Assembly: GCF_003289625.1 (NCBI RefSeq)
Contig: NZ_QMBN01000002.1
Span: 270,610 to 334,609 of the forward strand
DNA: 64,000 nucleotides
Direction of reading: 5' to 3'
Source: Microbacterium sp. SMR1
GTDB lineage: Bacteria; Actinomycetota; Actinomycetes; Actinomycetales; Microbacteriaceae
Shown here: positions 44,848 through 60,640 of the stretch, piece after piece
How positions within the stretch are numbered: the stretch's first letter is position 1
Layout: each line of letters begins with the position of its first letter
Notes under the pieces: generated by a model
Seen by the model: the letters and a program-made list of their open reading frames with translations, nothing else
The model's database searches: none
What the model was told of the DNA's origin: nothing
Program-made: the position numbers and the translations under genes

Positions 44848-45522
44848 TCAGTCGACGATGAGCCGGTAGCCCATGCCGGACTCGGTGAGCAGGTGCTCGG
44901 GATGCGCGGGATCGGCCTCGAGCTTCTTCCGCAGCTGCGAGACGTAGAGACGCAGGTACCCGGTGTCGTTGACCTGCTCGGTGCCCCACAGCTCCTTCAG
45001 CAGGTCCTGCCGGGTCACGAGTGCCCCGGGGGTTCGGGCGAGGAAGTCGAGCATCCGCCACTCGGTCGGCGTGAGGTGCACGCGCTCGCCGCCACGCGTG
45101 ACGGTCTTGGCGGCCCGGTCGATCTCGACATCGGCGAACCGCACGACGGCGACGGATGCGGCACCGCCGGCCCGCCGGGTCAGCGCGCGCAGTCTCGCGA
45201 GCAGCTCGTCGATCTGGAAGGGCTTGGTGACGTAGTCGTCAGCCCCGGCGTCGAGCGCCGCCACCTTGTCTGCCGACCCGGTGCGCCCCGAGACGACGAT
45301 GATCGGCACGGCGCTCCATCCCCTCACGGCCTCGATGACGGCGACGCCGTCGAGGCGCGGCATCCCCAGATCGAGCACGATCACATCGGGATGCTCGGAC
45401 GCGGCCGCGGCGATCGCCGCCGCCCCGTCGGCGGCCGCCACGACGTCGTACCCGTGGGCCGCTAGCGTGATGCGCAGCGCCCGCACGAGCTGCGGGTCGT
45501 CGTCGGCGAGGAGGACCTTCAC
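44848..45522 (-). CDS. kdpE: KdpE response regulator
   Basis: A 224-residue OmpR/PhoB-family regulator. Receiver domain 1-115 with acidic cluster ADDDP and phosphoacceptor Asp51 in VIVLDLGMPRLDG, Lys in VTKPF; winged-helix output domain about 130-222 with TPTEWRMLDFLARTPGALVT and VSQLRKKLEADPAHP. Paired with KdpD by a 4-bp ATGA overlap and with the KdpFABC pump genes upstream. When phosphorylated it should activate the kdp promoter, probably at the CGTGAGG direct repeats near 52.81 kb. Confidence 0.96.
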   Translation of the reverse strand: MKVLLADDDPQLVRALRITLAAHGYDVVAAADGAAAIAAAASEHPDVIVLDLGMPRLDGVAVIEAVRGWSAVPIIVVSGRTGSADKVAALDAGADDYVTKPFQIDELLARLRALTRRAGGAASVAVVRFADVEIDRAAKTVTRGGERVHLTPTEWRMLDFLARTPGALVTRQDLLKELWGTEQVNDTGYLRLYVSQLRKKLEADPAHPEHLLTESGMGYRLIVD

Positions 45523-48038
45523 CCCTCGATCCTGCCCTCTTGCGCCGCCGCCGATGCCAGGGGCAGCTCGATCACCATGGTGAGGCCGCCGCCAGGGGTC
45601 TGCTCGGGCACGAGCTGGCCCCGCATTCCCTCGGTGAAACCCTTCGACAGCGCGAGCCCGAGCCCGAGTCCGGTCGTGTTGTCGGTGTCGCCGAGTCGCT
45701 GGAAGGGCGTGAACACGTCGCCGTGACGCTCGGGCGGGATGCCGGGTCCGTGGTCGATCACGCGGACCTGGGCCTGCCCGCCCAGCGAGCTCGTGCTGAT
45801 GCGCACCGGCGTTCCGGCAGGCGAATGGCGGTGGGCGTTGGCCAGCACGTTGACCAGCACCCGCTGCAACAGCACCGCATCGGCGAGCACCGGCCCGATC
45901 GCCTCGTCCAGCGCCAGCTCCACCGCAGCGGGCCCGAGACCGAGCTCGTCGACCGCGGCGAGCACGGCATCGGCCGTGTCGACCGGTCGCAGGGCGACGG
46001 CGAGAGCGCCGGCCTCGATGCGGCTCACATCGAGCAGGTCGGTCACGAGCGAGGTCAGCGTGCCGAGGCTCTCGTCGGCGGTCGCGAGCAGCTCGTCGCG
46101 GTCGGCGTCGTCGAGCGCGGGGCCGGCCGCGCGGAGCCCCCCGAGTGCCGCGACGGCAGCGGCCAGAGGGCGCCGCAGGTCATGGCTCGCCGCCGAGAGG
46201 AGGGCGCTGCGTACCCGGTCGGTCTCGGCGAGCACCGACGCCGAGCTCGCCGCCCGCTGCAGGTCGGCCTGCTCGAGCGCGGCGGCGAGCTGTGCGACGA
46301 CGACATCCAGCAGGCGGCGTTCCGAGCCGTCGAGCTGCTCCGACTCGCTGCCGTGGAGCTCGAGCACGGCCTCGCGTCCGACCTCGACGCGCAGGTGGCG
46401 GTCGTCGCGCACGGGCTCGCCGTCGGCGGCGATCACGGTCCCGTCCGACGCGACCAAGCGCGCACCCGACATCCCGAAGGCCTCGCGCGCCCGCGCGACG
46501 AGGGCCGGAATAGAGCCATCGCCCCGCAGCACGCTGCCGGCGACCGCCGCAAGCAGCTCGGCCTCGGCGGCTGCTCGCCGGGCCGACCGCGTGCCCCGGG
46601 CCGCGCGGTCGACGATGACGCTCACGAGGAGCGCGATGACGACGTACAGGATCAGCGCCCACGCGTGCAGCGGATCGGAGACCGTGACGGTGTACAGCGG
46701 AGCCACGAAGAAAAAGTCGAGCGTCACCCCGGACATCACCGCGGCGAAGACGGCCGGCCACAGTCCGCCGACGAGCGCGACCACGACGACGAGCAGCTGG
46801 TACGCGAGCACGTCGCTCGTGATCGACTCGGGGCTCTGCAGCGCGACGAGCAGCCACGTGAGCAGCGGACCGCCGGTCAGCGCGACGACGAAACCGAGGA
46901 TCCGGCGCCGCACGCTGAGAGCGCCGCCGGCGACACGGGGCAGGGTGAAGCGGCCGCCGGCGGCGGCGTGCGTCACGACGTGCACGTCGATATCGCCCGA
47001 CTCGCGGATGACGGTGGCGCCGATGCCCGGACCGCTGAGGGCCGCAGCGAGCCGGCCGCGACGGCTGACGCCGACGACGAGCTGCGACGCGTTGACCGAC
47101 CGCGCGAACTCGACGAGGGCGGCGGGGATGTCGTCGCCGACGACCTGGTGGTAGCTGCCGCCGAGCGATTCGACGAGAGCCCGTTGAGCGGCGAGGGCCG
47201 CCGGGTCGGCGGTGCGCAGCCCGTCCTGGCCCGACACGTGGACGGCCAGCAGCTCGCCGCCGGCCGAACGGTCGACGATGCGGGCCCCGCGCCGGATGAG
47301 AGTCTCGCCCTCGGGCCCGCCGGTCAGCGCGACCACGACGCGCTCGCGAGCCTGCCACGTGCCCCGGATGCCGTGCTCGGCACGGTAGTCCTGCAGGGCG
47401 CTGTCGACCTCGTCCGCGAGCCAGAGCAGTGCCAGTTCGCGGAGCGCCGTCAGGTTGCCGAGCCGGAAGTAGTTCGACAGGGCGGCGTCGATGCGCTCGG
47501 CGGGGTAGACGAGACCGGCAGCGAGGCGGTCGCGCAGCGACGGCGGTGCGAGGTCGACCAGCTCGATCGGGTCGGCCGAGCGCACGACGGCATCCGGCAC
47601 CGTCTCGCGCTGCGCGACGCCGGTGATCTGCTCGACGACGTCGCCGAGCGACTCGATGTGCTGGACGTTGACGGTCGTGATGACGTCGATGCCGGCATCC
47701 CGGAGCTCCTCGACGTCCTGCCAGCGCTTCTCGTTGCGCGACCCGCCGACGTTGGTGTGGGCGAGCTCGTCGACGAGGGCGACGCGCGGGGCTCGGGCGA
47801 GCACGCCCTCGAGGTCCATCTCGTCGAGCGTGACGCCGCGGTGCTCGAGGCGGCGGCGCGGAACGATCGGCAGTCCGGCGGTCATCGCGGCGGTCGCGGC
47901 GCGGCCGTGGGTCTCGACGATCGCGACGACGACGTCGATCCCGGCATCCTGAAGCCGGCGTCCTTCCTCGAGCATCTCGTAGGTCTTGCCCACGCCCGGC
48001 GCCGCACCCAGCAGCACCCGCAGCCGTCCCCGCTTCAC
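45519..48038 (-). CDS. kdpD: KdpD sensor histidine kinase
   Basis: An 839-residue full-length KdpD. Order: N-terminal KdpD domain with Walker A GAAPGVGKT (11-19) and VDELAHTNVGGSRNEKRWQD, a universal-stress-protein domain (VVVALTGGPEGETLIRRGAR), four TM helices around 375-480, a GAF-like region, HisKA with SAASHDLRRPLAAAV (phosphoacceptor His near 622), and HATPase (NVLANAHRHSPAGTPV, DHGPGIPPERHGDVFTPF, GLGLGLALSKGF). It senses low potassium or salt stress and phosphorylates KdpE. Follows kdpC by ~35 bp. Confidence 0.97.
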   Translation of the reverse strand: MKRGRLRVLLGAAPGVGKTYEMLEEGRRLQDAGIDVVVAIVETHGRAATAAMTAGLPIVPRRRLEHRGVTLDEMDLEGVLARAPRVALVDELAHTNVGGSRNEKRWQDVEELRDAGIDVITTVNVQHIESLGDVVEQITGVAQRETVPDAVVRSADPIELVDLAPPSLRDRLAAGLVYPAERIDAALSNYFRLGNLTALRELALLWLADEVDSALQDYRAEHGIRGTWQARERVVVALTGGPEGETLIRRGARIVDRSAGGELLAVHVSGQDGLRTADPAALAAQRALVESLGGSYHQVVGDDIPAALVEFARSVNASQLVVGVSRRGRLAAALSGPGIGATVIRESGDIDVHVVTHAAAGGRFTLPRVAGGALSVRRRILGFVVALTGGPLLTWLLVALQSPESITSDVLAYQLLVVVVALVGGLWPAVFAAVMSGVTLDFFFVAPLYTVTVSDPLHAWALILYVVIALLVSVIVDRAARGTRSARRAAAEAELLAAVAGSVLRGDGSIPALVARAREAFGMSGARLVASDGTVIAADGEPVRDDRHLRVEVGREAVLELHGSESEQLDGSERRLLDVVVAQLAAALEQADLQRAASSASVLAETDRVRSALLSAASHDLRRPLAAAVAALGGLRAAGPALDDADRDELLATADESLGTLTSLVTDLLDVSRIEAGALAVALRPVDTADAVLAAVDELGLGPAAVELALDEAIGPVLADAVLLQRVLVNVLANAHRHSPAGTPVRISTSSLGGQAQVRVIDHGPGIPPERHGDVFTPFQRLGDTDNTTGLGLGLALSKGFTEGMRGQLVPEQTPGGGLTMVIELPLASAAAQEGRIEG

Positions 48039-48702: not shown

Positions 48703-50880
48703 TCAGAAGCCCGGGATGAGGCTGACGGCGAGGTCGATCAGCTTGATGCCGACGAACGGCGCGATGACGCCGCCGAGCCCGTACACGACGAGGTTGCGGC
48801 TCAGGATCGACGAGGCGCTCGCCGCGCGGTACTTCACGCCGCGCAGTGCCAGCGGGATGAGCACGATGATGACGATCGCGTTGAACACGATCGCGCTCGT
48901 GACAGCGGAGGCCGGCGACGACAGCTGCATGACGTTGAGCGCCGCGAGCCCCGGGAACACCCCCATGAACATCGCCGGGATGATCGCGAAGTACTTGGCG
49001 ATGTCGTTCGCGAGCGAGAACGTCGTGAGGGCGCCGCGCGTGATGAGCAGCTGCTTTCCGATCCGGACGATGTCGATGAGCTTGGTCGGGTCCGAGTCGA
49101 GGTCGACCATGTTGCCGGCCTCCTTCGCCGCCGACGTGCCCGTGTTCATCGCCACGCCGACGTCGGCCTGCGCGAGGGCGGGTGCGTCGTTCGTGCCGTC
49201 GCCGGTCATCGCGACGAGGTGACCGCCCTCCTGCTCCTTGCGGATCAGGGCGAGCTTGTCTTCGGGCGTCGCCTCCGCGAGGAAGTCGTCGACACCCGCC
49301 TCTCTCGCGATCGCGGCAGCGGTCAGCGGGTTGTCGCCGGTGATCATGACGGTGCGGATGCCCATCGAGCGCAGCTCGTCGAAGCGCTCGCGCAGCCCGT
49401 CCTTGACGACATCCTTCAGGTGGATGACCCCGAGCAGCGTCCCGGCACCGGATGGGTCGAGGGTCGCGACGGCGAGCGGCGTGCCGCCGGACTGCGCGAT
49501 CGCGTCGGCGTGGTGCAGCAGCTCGGCGCGGGCCTCGGCCGAGACCGGTCGTGCCGATGCGTCGGGCCAGGCGAGCACCGACCCCGACGCGCCCTTGCGC
49601 ACCTGCGTGCCGTCGGGCAGGTCGACCCCGCTCATGCGCGTCTGCGCCGTGAAGGCGACCGCCACGGCGTCGCGCGGCAGCTCGCCCACCACGTGCTGCG
49701 AGGCCGCGAGCTCGACGACCGAGGTGCCCTCGGGTGTCGGGTCCGACAGCGACGACAGGGATGCCGCGCGGGCGAGCTCGGCGCCGTCGACGCCGGTCAT
49801 CGCGACGAACTCCGACGCGCGGCGGTTGCCGTAGGTGATCGTGCCGGTCTTGTCGAGCAGCAGCGTCGTCACGTCGCCGGCCGCCTCGACCGCGCGGCCC
49901 GACATGGCCAGGACGTTCCGCTGCACGAGACGGTCCATGCCCGCGATGCCGATGGCCGACAGCAGCGCGCCGATCGTGGTCGGGATCAGGCAGACGAGCA
50001 GCGCGACGAGCACCGGGATGCTGACGGGCGAGGCGCTGTACGACGCGATCGGGTTCATCGCCAGCACGACCACGACGAAGACGATCGACAGGCTCGCGAG
50101 CAGGATATTGAGGGCGATCTCGTTGGGCGTCCGCTGACGCGCAGCGCCCTCGACGAGGGCGATCATCCGGTCGACGAAGGTCTCGCCGGGCTTCGACGTG
50201 ATCCTCACGACGATGCGGTCGGAGAGCACCCGGGTGCCGCCCGTGACGGCGCTGCGGTCGCCGCCGGACTCGCGGACGACGGGAGCCGACTCGCCCGTGA
50301 TGGCCGACTCGTCGACCGTCGCGATGCCGTCGACGATGTCGCCGTCGCCCGGGATGAGCTCACCGGCCTCGACGAGCACGACATCCCCGAGCCGCAGGTC
50401 GGCCGAGGGCACCTCCTCGGTCGCGGAGCCCCGGGCCGCGGCATCCGTCCGCTCGTCCCACGAGACCACCCGGCGCGCGGTCGTCGTCGTGCGGGTCTTG
50501 CGCAGCGCCTGGGCCTGCGCCTTGCCGCGGCCCTCGGCGACGGACTCCGCCACGTTCGCGAAGAGGACCGTGAGCCACAGCCAGACCGCGATGCCCCAGG
50601 TGAAGCCCGCCGGAACCGTCGTGCCGCCCGAGGTCTCGGGACCGCCGAGGAACGGCTCCGCGATCGCGATCGCCGTCGTCAGGGCCGCGCCGACCCAGAC
50701 GAGGAACATGACGGGGTTCCGCCACTGGGCGGCGGGGTTGAGCTTGCGGACCGCGCCGGGGAGGGCGGCACCGACCTGCTCGAGGCTGAACGCGCTGCGC
50801 CGGCGCGGTGCCGGGCTGGCGTCCGGGTCCGCGGACGACGGGCCGGATGAGGGCCGGGTTTCGGTCAGAGGGGCAGACAT
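48703..50880 (-). CDS. kdpB: KdpB, ATPase subunit of the K+-transporting P-type ATPase
   Basis: A 725-residue P-type ATPase, slightly long because of a Pro/Ser/Ala-rich N-terminal extension of ~35 residues before [20 protein letters not shown]. Phosphorylation site [11 protein letters not shown], actuator motif ITGESAPV (TGES), nucleotide-binding [10 protein letters not shown], hinge [20 protein letters not shown]. Membrane helices match KdpB. ATG 50880 overlaps the kdpA stop by one base. It drives high-affinity potassium import through KdpA under potassium limitation. Confidence 0.98.
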
Positions 50881-52562
50881 CAGGAGAGTCCTTCGGCGAG
50901 GGGGCCCAGGGTGAGGACCGGGAAATAGGTGAGCGCGGTGATGATGACGACGACGCCGGCGAGCAGGCCCGCGAACTGCGGGCGGTGCGTCGGGAGGGTG
51001 CCGGCGCTCGACGGCACGGTGTCTTGAGCGGCGAGCGATCCGGCGAGGGCGAGGACGAGCACGATCGGGATGAACCGGCCGAGCAGCATCGCGACGCCGA
51101 GCGCCGTGTTGAGCCACGGGGTGTTGGCGGTGAGGCCGGCGAAAGCCGAGCCGTTGTTGTTCGCCGCGGAGGTGAACGCGTAGAGGACTTCGCTCAGGCC
51201 GTGGACGCCCGGGTTCCAGATCGAGGTGCCCTCGACGTCGGCGCGCACGGCCGGGATCGCGAAGCTCAGCGCCGTCCCCGCGAGCACGAGCGTCGGCGTC
51301 ACGAGGATGTACAGGCTCGCGAGCTTGATCTCGCGGGGCCCGATCTTCTTGCCGAGGTACTCGGGCGTACGCCCGATCAGCAGGCCACCGACGAACACCG
51401 CGAGGATCGCGAGCACCAGCATCCCGTACAGCCCTGAACCGACCCCGCCGGGAGCGATCTCGCCGAGCATCATGTTGAGCATCGGCATCATGCCGCCGAG
51501 CGGTGTGAAGCTGTCGTGCATCGCGTTGACCGCGCCGGTCGAGGTGAGCGTCGAAGCGCCGCCGAACAGCGCCGATGCGGCGATTCCGAACCGGGTCTCC
51601 TTGCCCTCCATCGCGGCGCCGGCGAGCTGCGTCGCCGTGCCGCCGCCCGACGCCTCGGCCCACGAGCCGAGGGCGATCGAGGCCAGGAAGATCCCGCCCA
51701 TGACCGCGACGATCGCGTAGCCCTGGCGATCGTCGCCGACGATCCGGCCGAAGGCGCGCGGCATGGCGAACGGGATGACGAGCAGCAGCAGGATCTCGAA
51801 CAGGTTCGTCCACGGCGTCGGGTTCTCGAACGGATGGGCCGAGTTCGCGTTGAAGAACCCGCCGCCGTTCGTGCCGAGCAGCTTGATGGCCTCCTGGCTG
51901 GCGACCGGTCCGCCGGGGATCGACTGCGCCCCGCCGGCGATCGTCTGCACGTCGGTGAAGCCCGCGAAGTTCTGGATCACGCCGCCTGCGAGCAGCACGA
52001 CGGCCGCGACGATCGCCATCGGGAGGAGGATGCGGCCGAGGCCGCGCACGAGGTCGACCCAGAAGTTGCCGATCGTCCCCGAGCGGCGATACGCGAAGCC
52101 CCGGACGAGGGCGATGGCGACGGCCATGCCGACCGCGGCCGAGACGAAGTTCTGCACGGCCAGACCCGCGAACTGCACGGTGTAGCCGAGCGTCGTGTCG
52201 GGGGAGTACGACTGCCAGTTCGTGTTGGCCACGAACGAGATGGCGGTGTTGAACGCGAGGTGCTCGCTCGGTGCGGGCAGACCGAGGCTGAACGGCAGGA
52301 TCGGCTGGAGGCGCTGCAGTCCGTAGACGATCACGACGCCGACGAGCGAGAACAGCAGCACGCCGCGGGCGTAGGCCTGCCAGGTCTGCTCGGCGCGTGG
52401 ATCGACGCCGATCAGGCGGTAGACGCCCCGTTCGACGGCGAGGTCGCGCGGCGACGTGTAGACGCGAGCGATGTAGTCGCCGACGGGCCGGTACAGCAGG
52501 ACGAGGATGAGGACGAGGGTCGCGATCTGCAACGACGCGAACCCGATCTGCGCGGCATCCAC
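50880..52562 (-). CDS. kdpA: KdpA, K+-translocating subunit
   Basis: A 560-residue membrane protein with about ten TM helices, the potassium channel-like subunit of the Kdp pump. Selectivity-filter and family segments are clear: [80 protein letters not shown]. Start is GTG 52562, one base after the end of kdpF. It binds K+ in the membrane and is coupled to KdpB. Confidence 0.98.
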
Positions 52563-52563
52563 G

Positions 52564-52650
52564 TCAGAACCGTTCGGGCCGCACGAGGGCGACGACGAGG
52601 TAGACGATGGCGGCGACGGCCAGCACCGCCGCGAGGAGCGAGAAGACCAT
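52564..52650 (-). CDS. kdpF: KdpF, small subunit of the Kdp complex
   Basis: A 28-residue single-helix peptide, [20 protein letters not shown] followed by ALVRPERF. The C-terminal R-P-E-R-F is the usual KdpF ending. It lies directly before kdpA (stop 52564-52566, kdpA start 52562) and its ATG overlaps the stop of a second tiny ORF upstream by one base. It is a stabilising subunit of KdpFABC and is easily missed because of its length. Confidence 0.9.
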
Positions 52651-52733
52651 CACAGCTTCTCGACCCCCCGGGCGATGAGGCCGGCGACGGCGAAGAGCGC
52701 GAGGATCGCGGCGAGATAGATGAGGTCGAGCAC
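52650..52733 (-). CDS. 27-residue single-helix membrane peptide at the head of the kdp operon
   Basis: GTG 52733 opens a 27-residue ORF reading VLDLIYLAAILALFAVAGLI then ARGVEKL, ending TGATG on the kdpF start. One hydrophobic helix followed by a basic, Glu-Lys ending is a composition expected of a real small membrane protein. It comes first in the operon and is translationally coupled to kdpF. I recall similar short ORFs before kdpF in other actinobacteria, but its role is unknown. The ribosome binding site is weak (GGAT). Confidence 0.65.
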   Translation of the reverse strand: MLDLIYLAAILALFAVAGLIARGVEKL

Positions 52734-52774
52734 GAGATCCGATGCAACACCCCGCCGGGTGCCGCGCCCGCTGT

Positions 52775-52824
52775 CCTCACGGAATCCATACGGCCTCGCG
52801 CCCGCTCCTCACGCCGCCCTCACG
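52775..52824 (-). promoter_or_regulatory. candidate KdpE-binding direct repeats and kdp promoter
   Basis: Read on the minus strand, CGTGAGG occurs at 52824-52818 and 52813-52807, i.e. 7 bp, a 4-bp spacer, 7 bp, the 11-bp period typical of OmpR/PhoB-family sites. A -10-like TATGGA (52790-52785) lies 16 bp downstream, so the boxes cover the -35 position as at activator-dependent promoters. A third CGTGAGG (52781-52775) lies near the expected transcription start, about 45 bp from the first ORF of the operon. Confidence 0.6.
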
Positions 52825-52864
52825 GTTTTGGTGCCGGTTCGGCGCCGGCTCGGCGCCCGGTGGC

Positions 52865-52949
52865 GATACATCCGTCGGACGGCCGGTGCTGGTGTCGCCT
52901 CCAACGTGCGCCAAGACGACACCAGCACCACCGGTCCTGCAGATGTATC
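52865..52949. repeat. 85-bp imperfect palindromic repeat, copy 2
   Basis: Starts GATACATCCGTCGGAC and ends GGTCCTGCAGATGTATC. The arms are nearly reverse complements (GGTGCTGGTGTCG in one, CGACACCAGCACC in the other) around a ~20-base centre. Same length as, and about 72% identical to, copy 1 at 25036-25120. It lies in the gap between the kdp promoter and a small acidic-protein gene. No coding capacity. Confidence 0.85.
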
Positions 52950-52984
52950 GCAAGCCCGGCCTTCCGGCCGGATCAGGGGCGGGG

Positions 52985-53200
52985 TCAGGGCGCGAGGGGC
53001 GAGGACTCGTCGTCGATGACCCCGATGCCGACGGCGTGGTGGCTCGGCTCCTCGTCCTTCTGCTCCGGAGCCTTGGGCTCTTCGCCCGGCTCCTTCGCGA
53101 CGCTGGGCTCTTCGAGCTCCTCCGTCGAGGGGTTCTCGTCGGGGGCGTGCTGGGCACCCTCGTCGGCGTGCTCGGCCTCGTTGTCGTGGTGATCGGTCAT
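52985..53200 (-). CDS. small, highly acidic hydrophilic protein
   Basis: A 71-residue protein with GGAAGGGAG before ATG 53200. It is dominated by Glu, Asp, His, Pro and Lys (MTDHHDNEAEHADEGAQHAP, STEELEEPSVAKEPGEEPKA) and ends HHAVGIGVIDDESSPLAP, the only part with hydrophobic residues. It has no predicted helix bundle or TM segment and is probably disordered. The His-rich start might bind metal ions, but this is a guess. I do not recognise a family. It lies upstream of the kdp operon on the same strand, separated from it by the 85-bp palindrome. Confidence 0.6.
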   Translation of the reverse strand: MTDHHDNEAEHADEGAQHAPDENPSTEELEEPSVAKEPGEEPKAPEQKDEEPSHHAVGIGVIDDESSPLAP

Positions 53201-53359
53201 GTCGTTCTCCCTTCCACTCCCAGCGTGCGCCGATCAATCCGCCGGTGTCACCGGCTTGACGTAGCGACTCGTGTGGCCGAAGGGACCCATACCGCGCGGG
53301 GCCCATCGGTAGGGTTCCCGCATGACGTCCCGGACCGGGGCACCCGCGCGCTGAAACTG

Positions 53360-58576: not shown

Positions 58577-60640
58577 TCAGCGCTCGTCGGGCGAATCGGT
58601 GTGGGCCACCAGGCCGTAGGTCGCGGAGGCCCGGCCGGCGCGGTCGTCGCCGGGCATCGGGCGGGAGCGGCGGCCGTAGACGATCTCGGACGAATCGAGC
58701 AGCCACGGCACGAGGGTGATCTGCACGCCGTGCACCATCATCAGCTGCTGAGCGATGCGGCGGGCGCGTCGGTTGTGCAGGAAGGTCTCCCACCAGTGTC
58801 CGACGATGTACTGCGGCAGGTACACCGTGACGACGGATGAGCCGTGCTTCTCGCGGTACTTGCGGATGAACGCCGCGAGGGGAGCCGCATATTGGCGGTA
58901 GGGCGACTCGATGATCACGAGCGGCACCGGCATCCGGTGCACCTCCCAGTCGGTCTGCACATCCTGCGCCGACTCCTTCGACACCGCCACGTGCACGGCG
59001 ATGGTCTTGTCGTGCTTGGCCGAGAGGGCGTAGTCGACGGCCTTCGCGACGGGCTTCTGCAGGCGGTTCACGAGGACGAGGGCGACGTCGCCCGTCGAGC
59101 CGTAGTGCACGTCGTCATCCATCGCGATCTCGTGCTCGACGTCGCGGTAGTAGCGGCTCACCCCGACCATGAGGAACGCCAGGATCGGGATCGCGATGAA
59201 CACGAGCCAGGCGCCGTGGGTGAACTTCGTCACGGTGACGATGAGGAGCACCGCGACGGTGAAGGTCGCCCCGATCCCGTTGATGATCAGTCCGCGGCGG
59301 GCCTCCGCGCGGTCGTCGGCGGCGGTCGGATGCAGCAGCCGCAGCTCACGCCGCCAGTGCTTGACCATCCCGACCTGACCGAGCGAGAACGACACGAACA
59401 CGCCGATGATGTACAGCTGGATGAGGGTGGTCAGGTCGGCTTGGAACACGACGAGCACGAGGATCGCGGCGAGCCCCAGGATGATCATGCCGTTGGAGAA
59501 GACGAGCCGGTCACCGCGGGTGTTCAGCGACTTAGGCGCGTACCCGTCGCGGGCGAGCACGGCGCCCAGCAGCGGGAACCCGTTGAACGCCGTGTTCGCG
59601 GCGAGCAGCAGCACGCAGGCGGTCGCGGCCTGGATGATGAAGAACGGGATCGACCCCATGCCGAACGTCGCGGCGGCGATCTGCGCCATGAGGCTCGGCT
59701 GCGGCTGGTTGACGCAGTCGAAGCCGACGAGGGCGCAGGGATCTTCGGCGTAGTGGACGCCGGCGATGAGGCCGAGCGCCGTCAGGCCCGAGAACAGCAG
59801 GATGGCGATCGTGCCCATCATGACGAGGGTCTTCTGCGCGTTCGCGATCTTCGGGGCGCGGAAGGCCGGCACACCGTTCGAGACCGCCTCGACGCCGGTC
59901 AGGGCCGAGCAGCCGCTCGAGAACGCGCGCAGGATCAGCAGGATGAGCGCGACCTGGCTGAGGCTCTCGGCCTCCATCGCGAACTGCGCGCTCGAGGCGA
60001 CGGGGGCGTCGCCGAGCAGCGTGCGGATGAGCCCGGTCGCCACCATGACGCCGACCGAGCCGATGAAGATGTAGGTCGGCACCGCGAATGCCGACGAGGC
60101 CTCGCGCACCCCGCGGAGGTTGACGATGATGATGAGGACGACGAACCCGACCGCCAGCTCGACCCGCCAGGGGGCGAGGCCGGGCAACGCCGAGATGATG
60201 TTGTCGACGCCGGATGCCACCGACACGGCCACCGTGAGGATGTAGTCGACGAGCAGCGCCGCGGCCACGACGACCCCGGCCTTCTCGCCCAGGTTGGTGC
60301 GCGCGACCTCGTAGTCGCCGCCGCCGGAGGGATAGGCCTTGATCAGCTGTCGGTAGCTCAGCACGACGACGATGAGCAGGGCCACCACCGCCAGCGCGAC
60401 CCACGGGCTGAAGGCGAGCATCGCCGTGCCGCCGATCGCCAGGATCATCAGCAGTTCCTGCGGCGCGTACGCGACCGACGACAGGGCGTCGGAGGCGAAG
60501 ATCGGCAGGGCCCGGCGCTTGGGGAGGAGCTGGTCGTCGAGCTTCTCGGAATCGAGCGGGTCGCCGATGAGGATGCGCTTCGCGATCGGCGTGGTTTCCT
60601 CGCCCGGTTCGCGACTGTCAGTGGTCACGGCGGGCGACAT
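58577..60640 (-). CDS. kimA: KimA-type potassium importer (APC superfamily)
   Basis: A 687-residue transporter with 12 TM helices and a C-terminal USP-like cytoplasmic domain (from ~470). Segments agree closely, from memory, with Bacillus KimA: ASDALSSVAYAPQELLMILA, LLVDYILTVAVSVASGVDNI, LRAFSSGCSALTGVEAVSNG, RDGYAPKSLNTRGDRLVFSN. KimA is a high-affinity, proton-coupled K+ importer inhibited by c-di-AMP at its C-terminal domain (HVAVSKESAQDVQTDWEVHR, LPQYIVGHWWETFLHNRRAR here). The closest alternative call is a general amino-acid APC permease, less likely given these motifs. Single gene, ATG 60640. Confidence 0.82.
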   Translation of the reverse strand: MSPAVTTDSREPGEETTPIAKRILIGDPLDSEKLDDQLLPKRRALPIFASDALSSVAYAPQELLMILAIGGTAMLAFSPWVALAVVALLIVVVLSYRQLIKAYPSGGGDYEVARTNLGEKAGVVVAAALLVDYILTVAVSVASGVDNIISALPGLAPWRVELAVGFVVLIIIVNLRGVREASSAFAVPTYIFIGSVGVMVATGLIRTLLGDAPVASSAQFAMEAESLSQVALILLILRAFSSGCSALTGVEAVSNGVPAFRAPKIANAQKTLVMMGTIAILLFSGLTALGLIAGVHYAEDPCALVGFDCVNQPQPSLMAQIAAATFGMGSIPFFIIQAATACVLLLAANTAFNGFPLLGAVLARDGYAPKSLNTRGDRLVFSNGMIILGLAAILVLVVFQADLTTLIQLYIIGVFVSFSLGQVGMVKHWRRELRLLHPTAADDRAEARRGLIINGIGATFTVAVLLIVTVTKFTHGAWLVFIAIPILAFLMVGVSRYYRDVEHEIAMDDDVHYGSTGDVALVLVNRLQKPVAKAVDYALSAKHDKTIAVHVAVSKESAQDVQTDWEVHRMPVPLVIIESPYRQYAAPLAAFIRKYREKHGSSVVTVYLPQYIVGHWWETFLHNRRARRIAQQLMMVHGVQITLVPWLLDSSEIVYGRRSRPMPGDDRAGRASATYGLVAHTDSPDER

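Follow-up and report, generated by a model that had tools for sequence, protein, structure and literature searches.

A four-part direct repeat upstream of the Microbacterium kdp operon as a probable KdpE operator

Results

The kdp locus and a small ORF that precedes kdpF

The window, a 64,000-nucleotide stretch of DNA from Microbacterium sp. SMR1, carries on its minus strand, in this order, a small ORF, kdpF, kdpA, kdpB, kdpC, kdpD and kdpE. The host is a close relative of M. arborescens DSM 20754, whose KdpA is 99% identical to that of the window. Pfam identified kdpF (52564..52653; PF09604, E 9.7e-08), kdpA (50880..52562; PF03814, E 1.8e-233) and kdpB (an E1-E2 ATPase match), while kdpC was named from sequence and gene order alone, and kdpD, the sensor kinase ORF at 45519..48038, from sequence and place alone. 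The product of kdpE (44848..45522), the proposed binder of the repeats described below, contains Pfam Response_reg and Trans_reg_C domains and has the KdpE structure 4kny as its top PDB match (E 6.2e-62); its top NCBIfam model is likewise KdpE, at a score under the cut-off of that model. A regulator of the OmpR/PhoB family is accordingly encoded near the repeats.

For comparison, 183 kdp loci were assembled: 30 from genus searches (L001-L030), the best 80 matches of a genome collection (L031-L110) and 73 same-genus upstream stretches. One of them (L072) came without upstream DNA, and 182 were scanned. Between the repeats and kdpF of the window lies an unannotated 27-codon membrane-peptide ORF (52650..52733, minus strand) that begins with GTG, ends in GVEKL and overlaps the kdpF start with its stop codon (GTGA). 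A similar 27-codon ORF stands before kdpF in 179 of the 182 loci, mostly with ERL or EKL at the C-terminus. Its first codon is GTG in all 149 ORFs that begin with Val, ATG in 19 and TTG in 5; in 6 loci the aligned codon is not a start codon. The ORFs have a median score of 80.8 as compared to 11.6 for the best reverse-strand control, and their differences fall on codon positions 1, 2 and 3 at 32, 23 and 45%, which is a modest coding signal. In the window kdpF begins one base ahead of the small-ORF stop codon, and this arrangement recurs in 146 of 158 loci. The analysis thus exposes a conserved small ORF that has no name in Pfam or NCBIfam, neither of which gave a match above cut-off, and of which no account was found in a literature search that included the accessible portions of PMC10117811, PMC5741613 and PMC10903887. 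Like ORFs, ending in DRL or DNL, were also seen upstream of kdpA on plasmids of Deinococcus, Rhizobium and Azospirillum (L188, L189 and L190), at places where the incomplete plasmid gene tables hold no gene; these score 12, 15 and 19, and the control maximum of 11.6 comes from another set.

The repeats form two pairs of half-sites

The original prediction had described three CGTGAGG boxes upstream of kdp, and all three are exact matches on the minus strand, at 52818..52824 (half-site 1), 52807..52813 (half-site 2) and 52775..52781 (half-site 4, also recovered by the matrix described below). Boxes 1 and 2 start 11 bp apart with a 4-bp spacer, the third box starts 32 bp after the second, and the hexamer TATGGA (52790-52785) starts 16 bp after box 2, all as predicted. 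The matrix and a pattern scan added a further half-site, CGTATGG at 52786..52792 (half-site 3), which changes the reading of the last two of these features. The third box is not an extra site but one half of a second, proximal pair, in which its partner is half-site 3, and the bases of TATGGA, which had been taken for a -10 with the boxes replacing the -35, belong to this half-site. Half-sites 1 and 2 form the distal pair. In each pair the half-sites repeat in the same direction every 11 bp, as in operators of the OmpR/PhoB type.

A single CGTGAGG is uninformative, as the window holds 19 where 19.6 are expected. The 11-bp tandem of CGTGAGG occurs once in the window and in 0 of 100 shuffles. 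The same holds for the four-half-site pattern, defined as two CGTnnGG-N4-CGTnAGGA pairs with a 32-bp offset, which is found once, with 0 mismatches where 3 were allowed, and in 0 of 100 shuffles. Chance was rejected as the origin of the repeats on both counts; the CGTGAGG boxes are genuine.

The proximal pair is conserved in Microbacterium and its relatives

The exact CGTGAGG tandem is present in only 10 of the 182 loci, and a looser form of the tandem is near-universal, its best-kept copy being CGTATGG-N4-CGTGAGGA or a close variant. Four loci were set aside, three for want of a clear small ORF and one (L042) for its short flank, which left 178; removal of near-duplicates reduced these to 160. 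The proximal pair reached a score of at least 8 in 159 of these 160 upstream regions, as compared to 0.75% of 800 dinucleotide shuffles, with an iterated matrix that had been trained on the same set. The matrix was therefore retrained on 92 Microbacterium promoters, and in this form it reached at least 10 in 53 of the 68 other loci, some of which are also Microbacterium, whereas only 4 of the 68 reverse strands and 3 of 68 best-of-20 shuffles did so. The boxes are thus conserved in Microbacterium and its relatives, in the looser form, when searched for upstream of related kdp operons.

Across the phylum (34 loci plus 4 plasmid loci) the Microbacterium matrix reached at least 10 in 2 of 38, no better than the controls (1 of 38 reverse strands and 1 of 38 shuffle sets), and the Microbacterium form is therefore limited to its lineage. 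In several of these loci a related 11-bp repeat can be made out by eye (CGTATGG-N4-CGTCAAG, CGTAAAG-N4-CGTAAAG). The second pair, scored as present when at least 8 of 11 key letters matched, lies exactly at -32 bp from the proximal pair in 105 of 158 promoters and between -34 and -30 in 110 of 158, as compared to 2.4 within -34 to -30 in shuffled sequences. Further peaks at -11, -21 and -43 were discounted, as they reflect overlap with the pairs at 0 and -32. In the mycobacterial loci L105 and L201 a second pair appears, by eye, 32 bp downstream.

A hexamer at a fixed distance marks a likely -10 element

When the 158 promoters with a score of at least 11 were anchored on the proximal pair, T was found in 90% of them at offset 45 and in 89% at offset 50, within a consensus TTGnAT 27 bp downstream of the last half-site. 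In the window this is TTGCAT (52742..52747, minus strand), at the same distance from half-site 4. Measured from the start of the site, the small ORF begins at 57-59 bp in 39 of the 158 promoters and at 83-232 bp in 119, and the place of TTGnAT relative to the operator is the same in both groups; the hexamer is therefore part of the promoter. Counting against its assignment as a -10, the second base is T, rather than the usual A, in 75% of kdp promoters. No ordinary sigma-70 promoter or intrinsic terminator was found by consensus in 52600-53300.

The GTG of the small ORF stands eight bases after TTGCAT, and the transcript is therefore probably leaderless or nearly so, with a start predicted at 52733..52736 from the usual distance to a -10. 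The window shares this layout, with a start codon about 6-8 bp past the -10 and no room for a Shine-Dalgarno sequence, with the other members of the group of 39, and the remaining 119 kdp promoters have a leader. Taken together, the -10 assignment and the leaderless start are likely. At the predicted 5' end of several of the 119 leaders (L021 and L122, for example) stands a hairpin of the GTGCC...GGCAC type; as a general feature this hairpin was dropped as weak (mean -14.5 as compared to -12.6 kcal/mol for shuffled sequences, sd 4.6).

Occurrence of the motif follows that of KdpE

The strict pattern was run over 149 Microbacterium genomes, in which KdpE was scored as present when a relative was found at E 1e-60 or better. 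By this measure KdpE is present in 114 genomes, KdpA in 105 and both in 102, so that 102 of the 105 genomes with KdpA also encode the regulator proposed to bind the site upstream of kdpFABC. The 114 genomes with KdpE hold 262 strict matches and the 35 without it hold 19, or 2.30 as compared to 0.54 per genome (Mann-Whitney p 2e-12, with the relatedness of the genomes ignored). A reversed control pattern gave 36 and 13 matches, or 0.32 and 0.37 per genome.

Twelve genomes have KdpE and no KdpA. In 8 of them a site scoring at least 12 precedes kdpD, a KdpDE-like pair or kimA-kdpDE; none was seen in the other 4, in two of which (G010 and G106) the kimA start falls outside the stretch scanned. In four loci without KdpA (L236, L237, L240 and L241) the site lies 59-168 bp upstream of a kdpD match, and TTGnAT occupies the -10 slot, or a place one base off it, in all but L241, as if the kdp promoter now drove kdpDE.

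The site also precedes genes for other potassium transporters

In a number of the 149 genomes the strict motif also forms clusters, spaced by 11 and 32 bp as at kdp, about 3-10 kb upstream of that operon, judging from those places that were listed. The clusters examined precede a gene for a protein like KimA, a K+ transporter unrelated to Kdp (PDB 6s3k, E 2.4e-117). With the kdp-trained matrix, 26 of 30 kimA loci scored at least 12, a score that one of the 30 reverse strands and none of 600 shuffles reached. These 30 loci are those most similar to the query, out of 117 of the 149 genomes with kimA, and the query itself has the site; the sample is therefore biased. Among the 26 sites the second pair is at -32 in 23, TAnnnT fills the -10 slot in 24, and the start codon is at offset 59-60 in all 26. 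In this way kimA is tied to KdpE by sequence.

Several observations at such genes count against the proposed model. The kimA of this genome, the ORF at window positions 58577-60640, is preceded by TAATGT and no boxes (best score -10.4, with one shuffle there reaching 14.0). A ktrB-like gene (PDB 7zp9, E 1.4e-82) has the site in only 5 of 28 loci, 28 of 30 having enough flank, and some strict matches lie near an ABC-transporter gene. In this genome the strict motif is found twice at kdp and once inside another ORF, which by eye resembles an acyl-CoA ligase gene; the last match was set aside as chance. In L244, L246 and L249 (at about 1510-1600) a KdpE-like pair and then a TTCAC...GTGAA palindrome precede the gene for an ABC-transporter ATPase.

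Discussion

From the boxes, their spacing and conservation, the fixed place of the -10, the co-occurrence with KdpE and the layout at kimA, all of which are read from the DNA itself, we infer KdpE binding and activation, the start site, leaderless translation and production of the peptide. Very probably the repeats form one binding site of four parts for KdpE, and a tandem KdpE operator is very likely. We hold with considerable confidence that the element as a whole combines the operator and the core promoter of the kdp operon, with two KdpE dimer pairs, a weak -10 and a start at the GTG of the small ORF. In such a promoter, phosphorylated KdpE, whose gene closes the kdp cluster, would bind as two dimers. 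One dimer would occupy a pair of CGTnnGG-like half-sites that face the same side of the helix at an 11-bp distance, and the second would do likewise 32 bp, or three helical turns, away. From the end of the proximal pair to a weak -10, which has no -35, there are 27 bp; the inner half-site thus falls at about -46 to -40, a position from which the bound dimer could take over the role of a -35 in recruiting RNA polymerase. Transcription would begin at the GTG or no more than about 3 bases from it, and the overlap of the small-ORF stop with the kdpF start may couple translation into kdpFABC. The model thus gives predictions of start sites.

How far the design extends is finely balanced. On the broader reading, one rigid arrangement of two dimer sites 32 bp apart, with 27 bp to the -10, would let the KdpE of Microbacterium control Kdp, KimA and, in some species, KtrB. 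The kdp promoter would then first serve a conserved 27-residue membrane peptide, leaderless in some species and with a leader in others, which may be a further small Kdp subunit or regulator.

The site can be compared with those of known systems. The KdpE of M. smegmatis has been shown by footprint and EMSA to bind ahead of kdpFABC, with CCGTAAAGAAACCATCAAGGCC as the minimal 22-bp sequence (PMC5401905). By eye this holds an 11-bp direct repeat like that of the window, CGTAAAG-N4-CATCAAG, and it aligns, again by eye, with the distal pair of the mycobacterial locus L201; the exact 22-mer occurs in 0 of 346 genomes. For M. smegmatis kdpFABC a single such motif is described, together with a promoter of the SigF type and a leader of 120 nt (PMC5401905). 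In the window there are two pairs 32 bp apart, of the form CGTnnGG-N4-CGTnAGGA, the -10 differs, and the transcript probably starts without a leader. Two findings from mycobacteria count against the present model. The start mapped in M. smegmatis is 120 nt upstream of kdpF, at a promoter assigned to SigF (PMC5401905), and in M. tuberculosis no sequence resembling the motif is reported by these authors, who cite a study in which binding was not observed there (PMC5401905). The E. coli site, which is bound by the DNA-binding domain of KdpE (PMC3264566), is likewise a direct repeat of two half-sites, 11 bp from one to the next (6 + 5 bp), but its half-sites are AT-rich (TTTATA, TTTACA), those of the window being GC-rich and arranged in two pairs. 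Within the limited depth of our literature search, and of the sources accessible to it, no described KdpE site was found for this actinobacterial group, to which the element gives a readable candidate.

The likeness extends to other members of the family, and a real site bound by another OmpR/PhoB-family regulator, of the PhoP, RegX3 or MtrA type, is an improbable though arguable explanation. M. tuberculosis PhoP uses 7-bp direct repeats with a 4-bp spacer (PMC4832192), a likeness of repeat layout to the site of a different regulator, and the KdpE of the window also matches the MtrA and PhoB models, under their cut-offs. Yet the motif counts track the presence of KdpE, in genomes that lack KdpA the site precedes kdpDE or kimA-kdpDE, and the further genes that carry the element include those for K+ transporters (kimA and some ktrB). 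Nor do we give much credence, and slightly less than to another binder, to the view that TTGnAT is a -35 resembling TTGACA, with the start further downstream, inside the small ORF of the window. TTGACT-like forms in some loci (L050, L056 and L077) would suit a -35, as would the frequent T at a second base that is usually A in a -10. But no second conserved AT-rich block was seen downstream of TTGnAT, TAnnnT fills the same slot at 24 of the 26 kimA promoters, and a transcript that began inside the ORF would lack its start codon, which is invariably GTG where the ORF begins with Val.

The layout first proposed, with TATGGA as the -10, boxes 1 and 2 in the place of its -35 and box 3 as an independent site near the start, is very hard to sustain. 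What is conserved is CGTnnGG with its 11-bp partner, the half-site reads CGTAGGG or CGTTCGG in many loci, and the would-be last base of the -10 (offset 7) is A in 71%, G in 29% and T in 0%, even though TATGGA does stand 16 bp past box 2. Chance repeats in GC-rich DNA are the least credible source of all: the unremarkable frequency of single boxes agrees with it, but it is contradicted by the shuffles, the conservation in 159 of 160 regions, the pairs at -32, the held-out loci and the kimA sites. We therefore retain from the original prediction its regulator, an OmpR/PhoB-family direct-repeat operator with KdpE as the most likely binder, which is conserved in Microbacterium and relatives and tracks KdpE across the 149 genomes, and not its placing of the -10 at TATGGA.

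A further feature is a long near-perfect inverted repeat at 52862-52950, in the gap that separates the kdp promoter from the next gene. A known RNA element was rejected here, the one match being sub-threshold (mir-21, E 0.19). The predicted fold spans 106 nt (-74.3 kcal/mol, z -7.3), and the repeat belongs to a dispersed family with 26 matches in this genome, several of which are both strands of one place.
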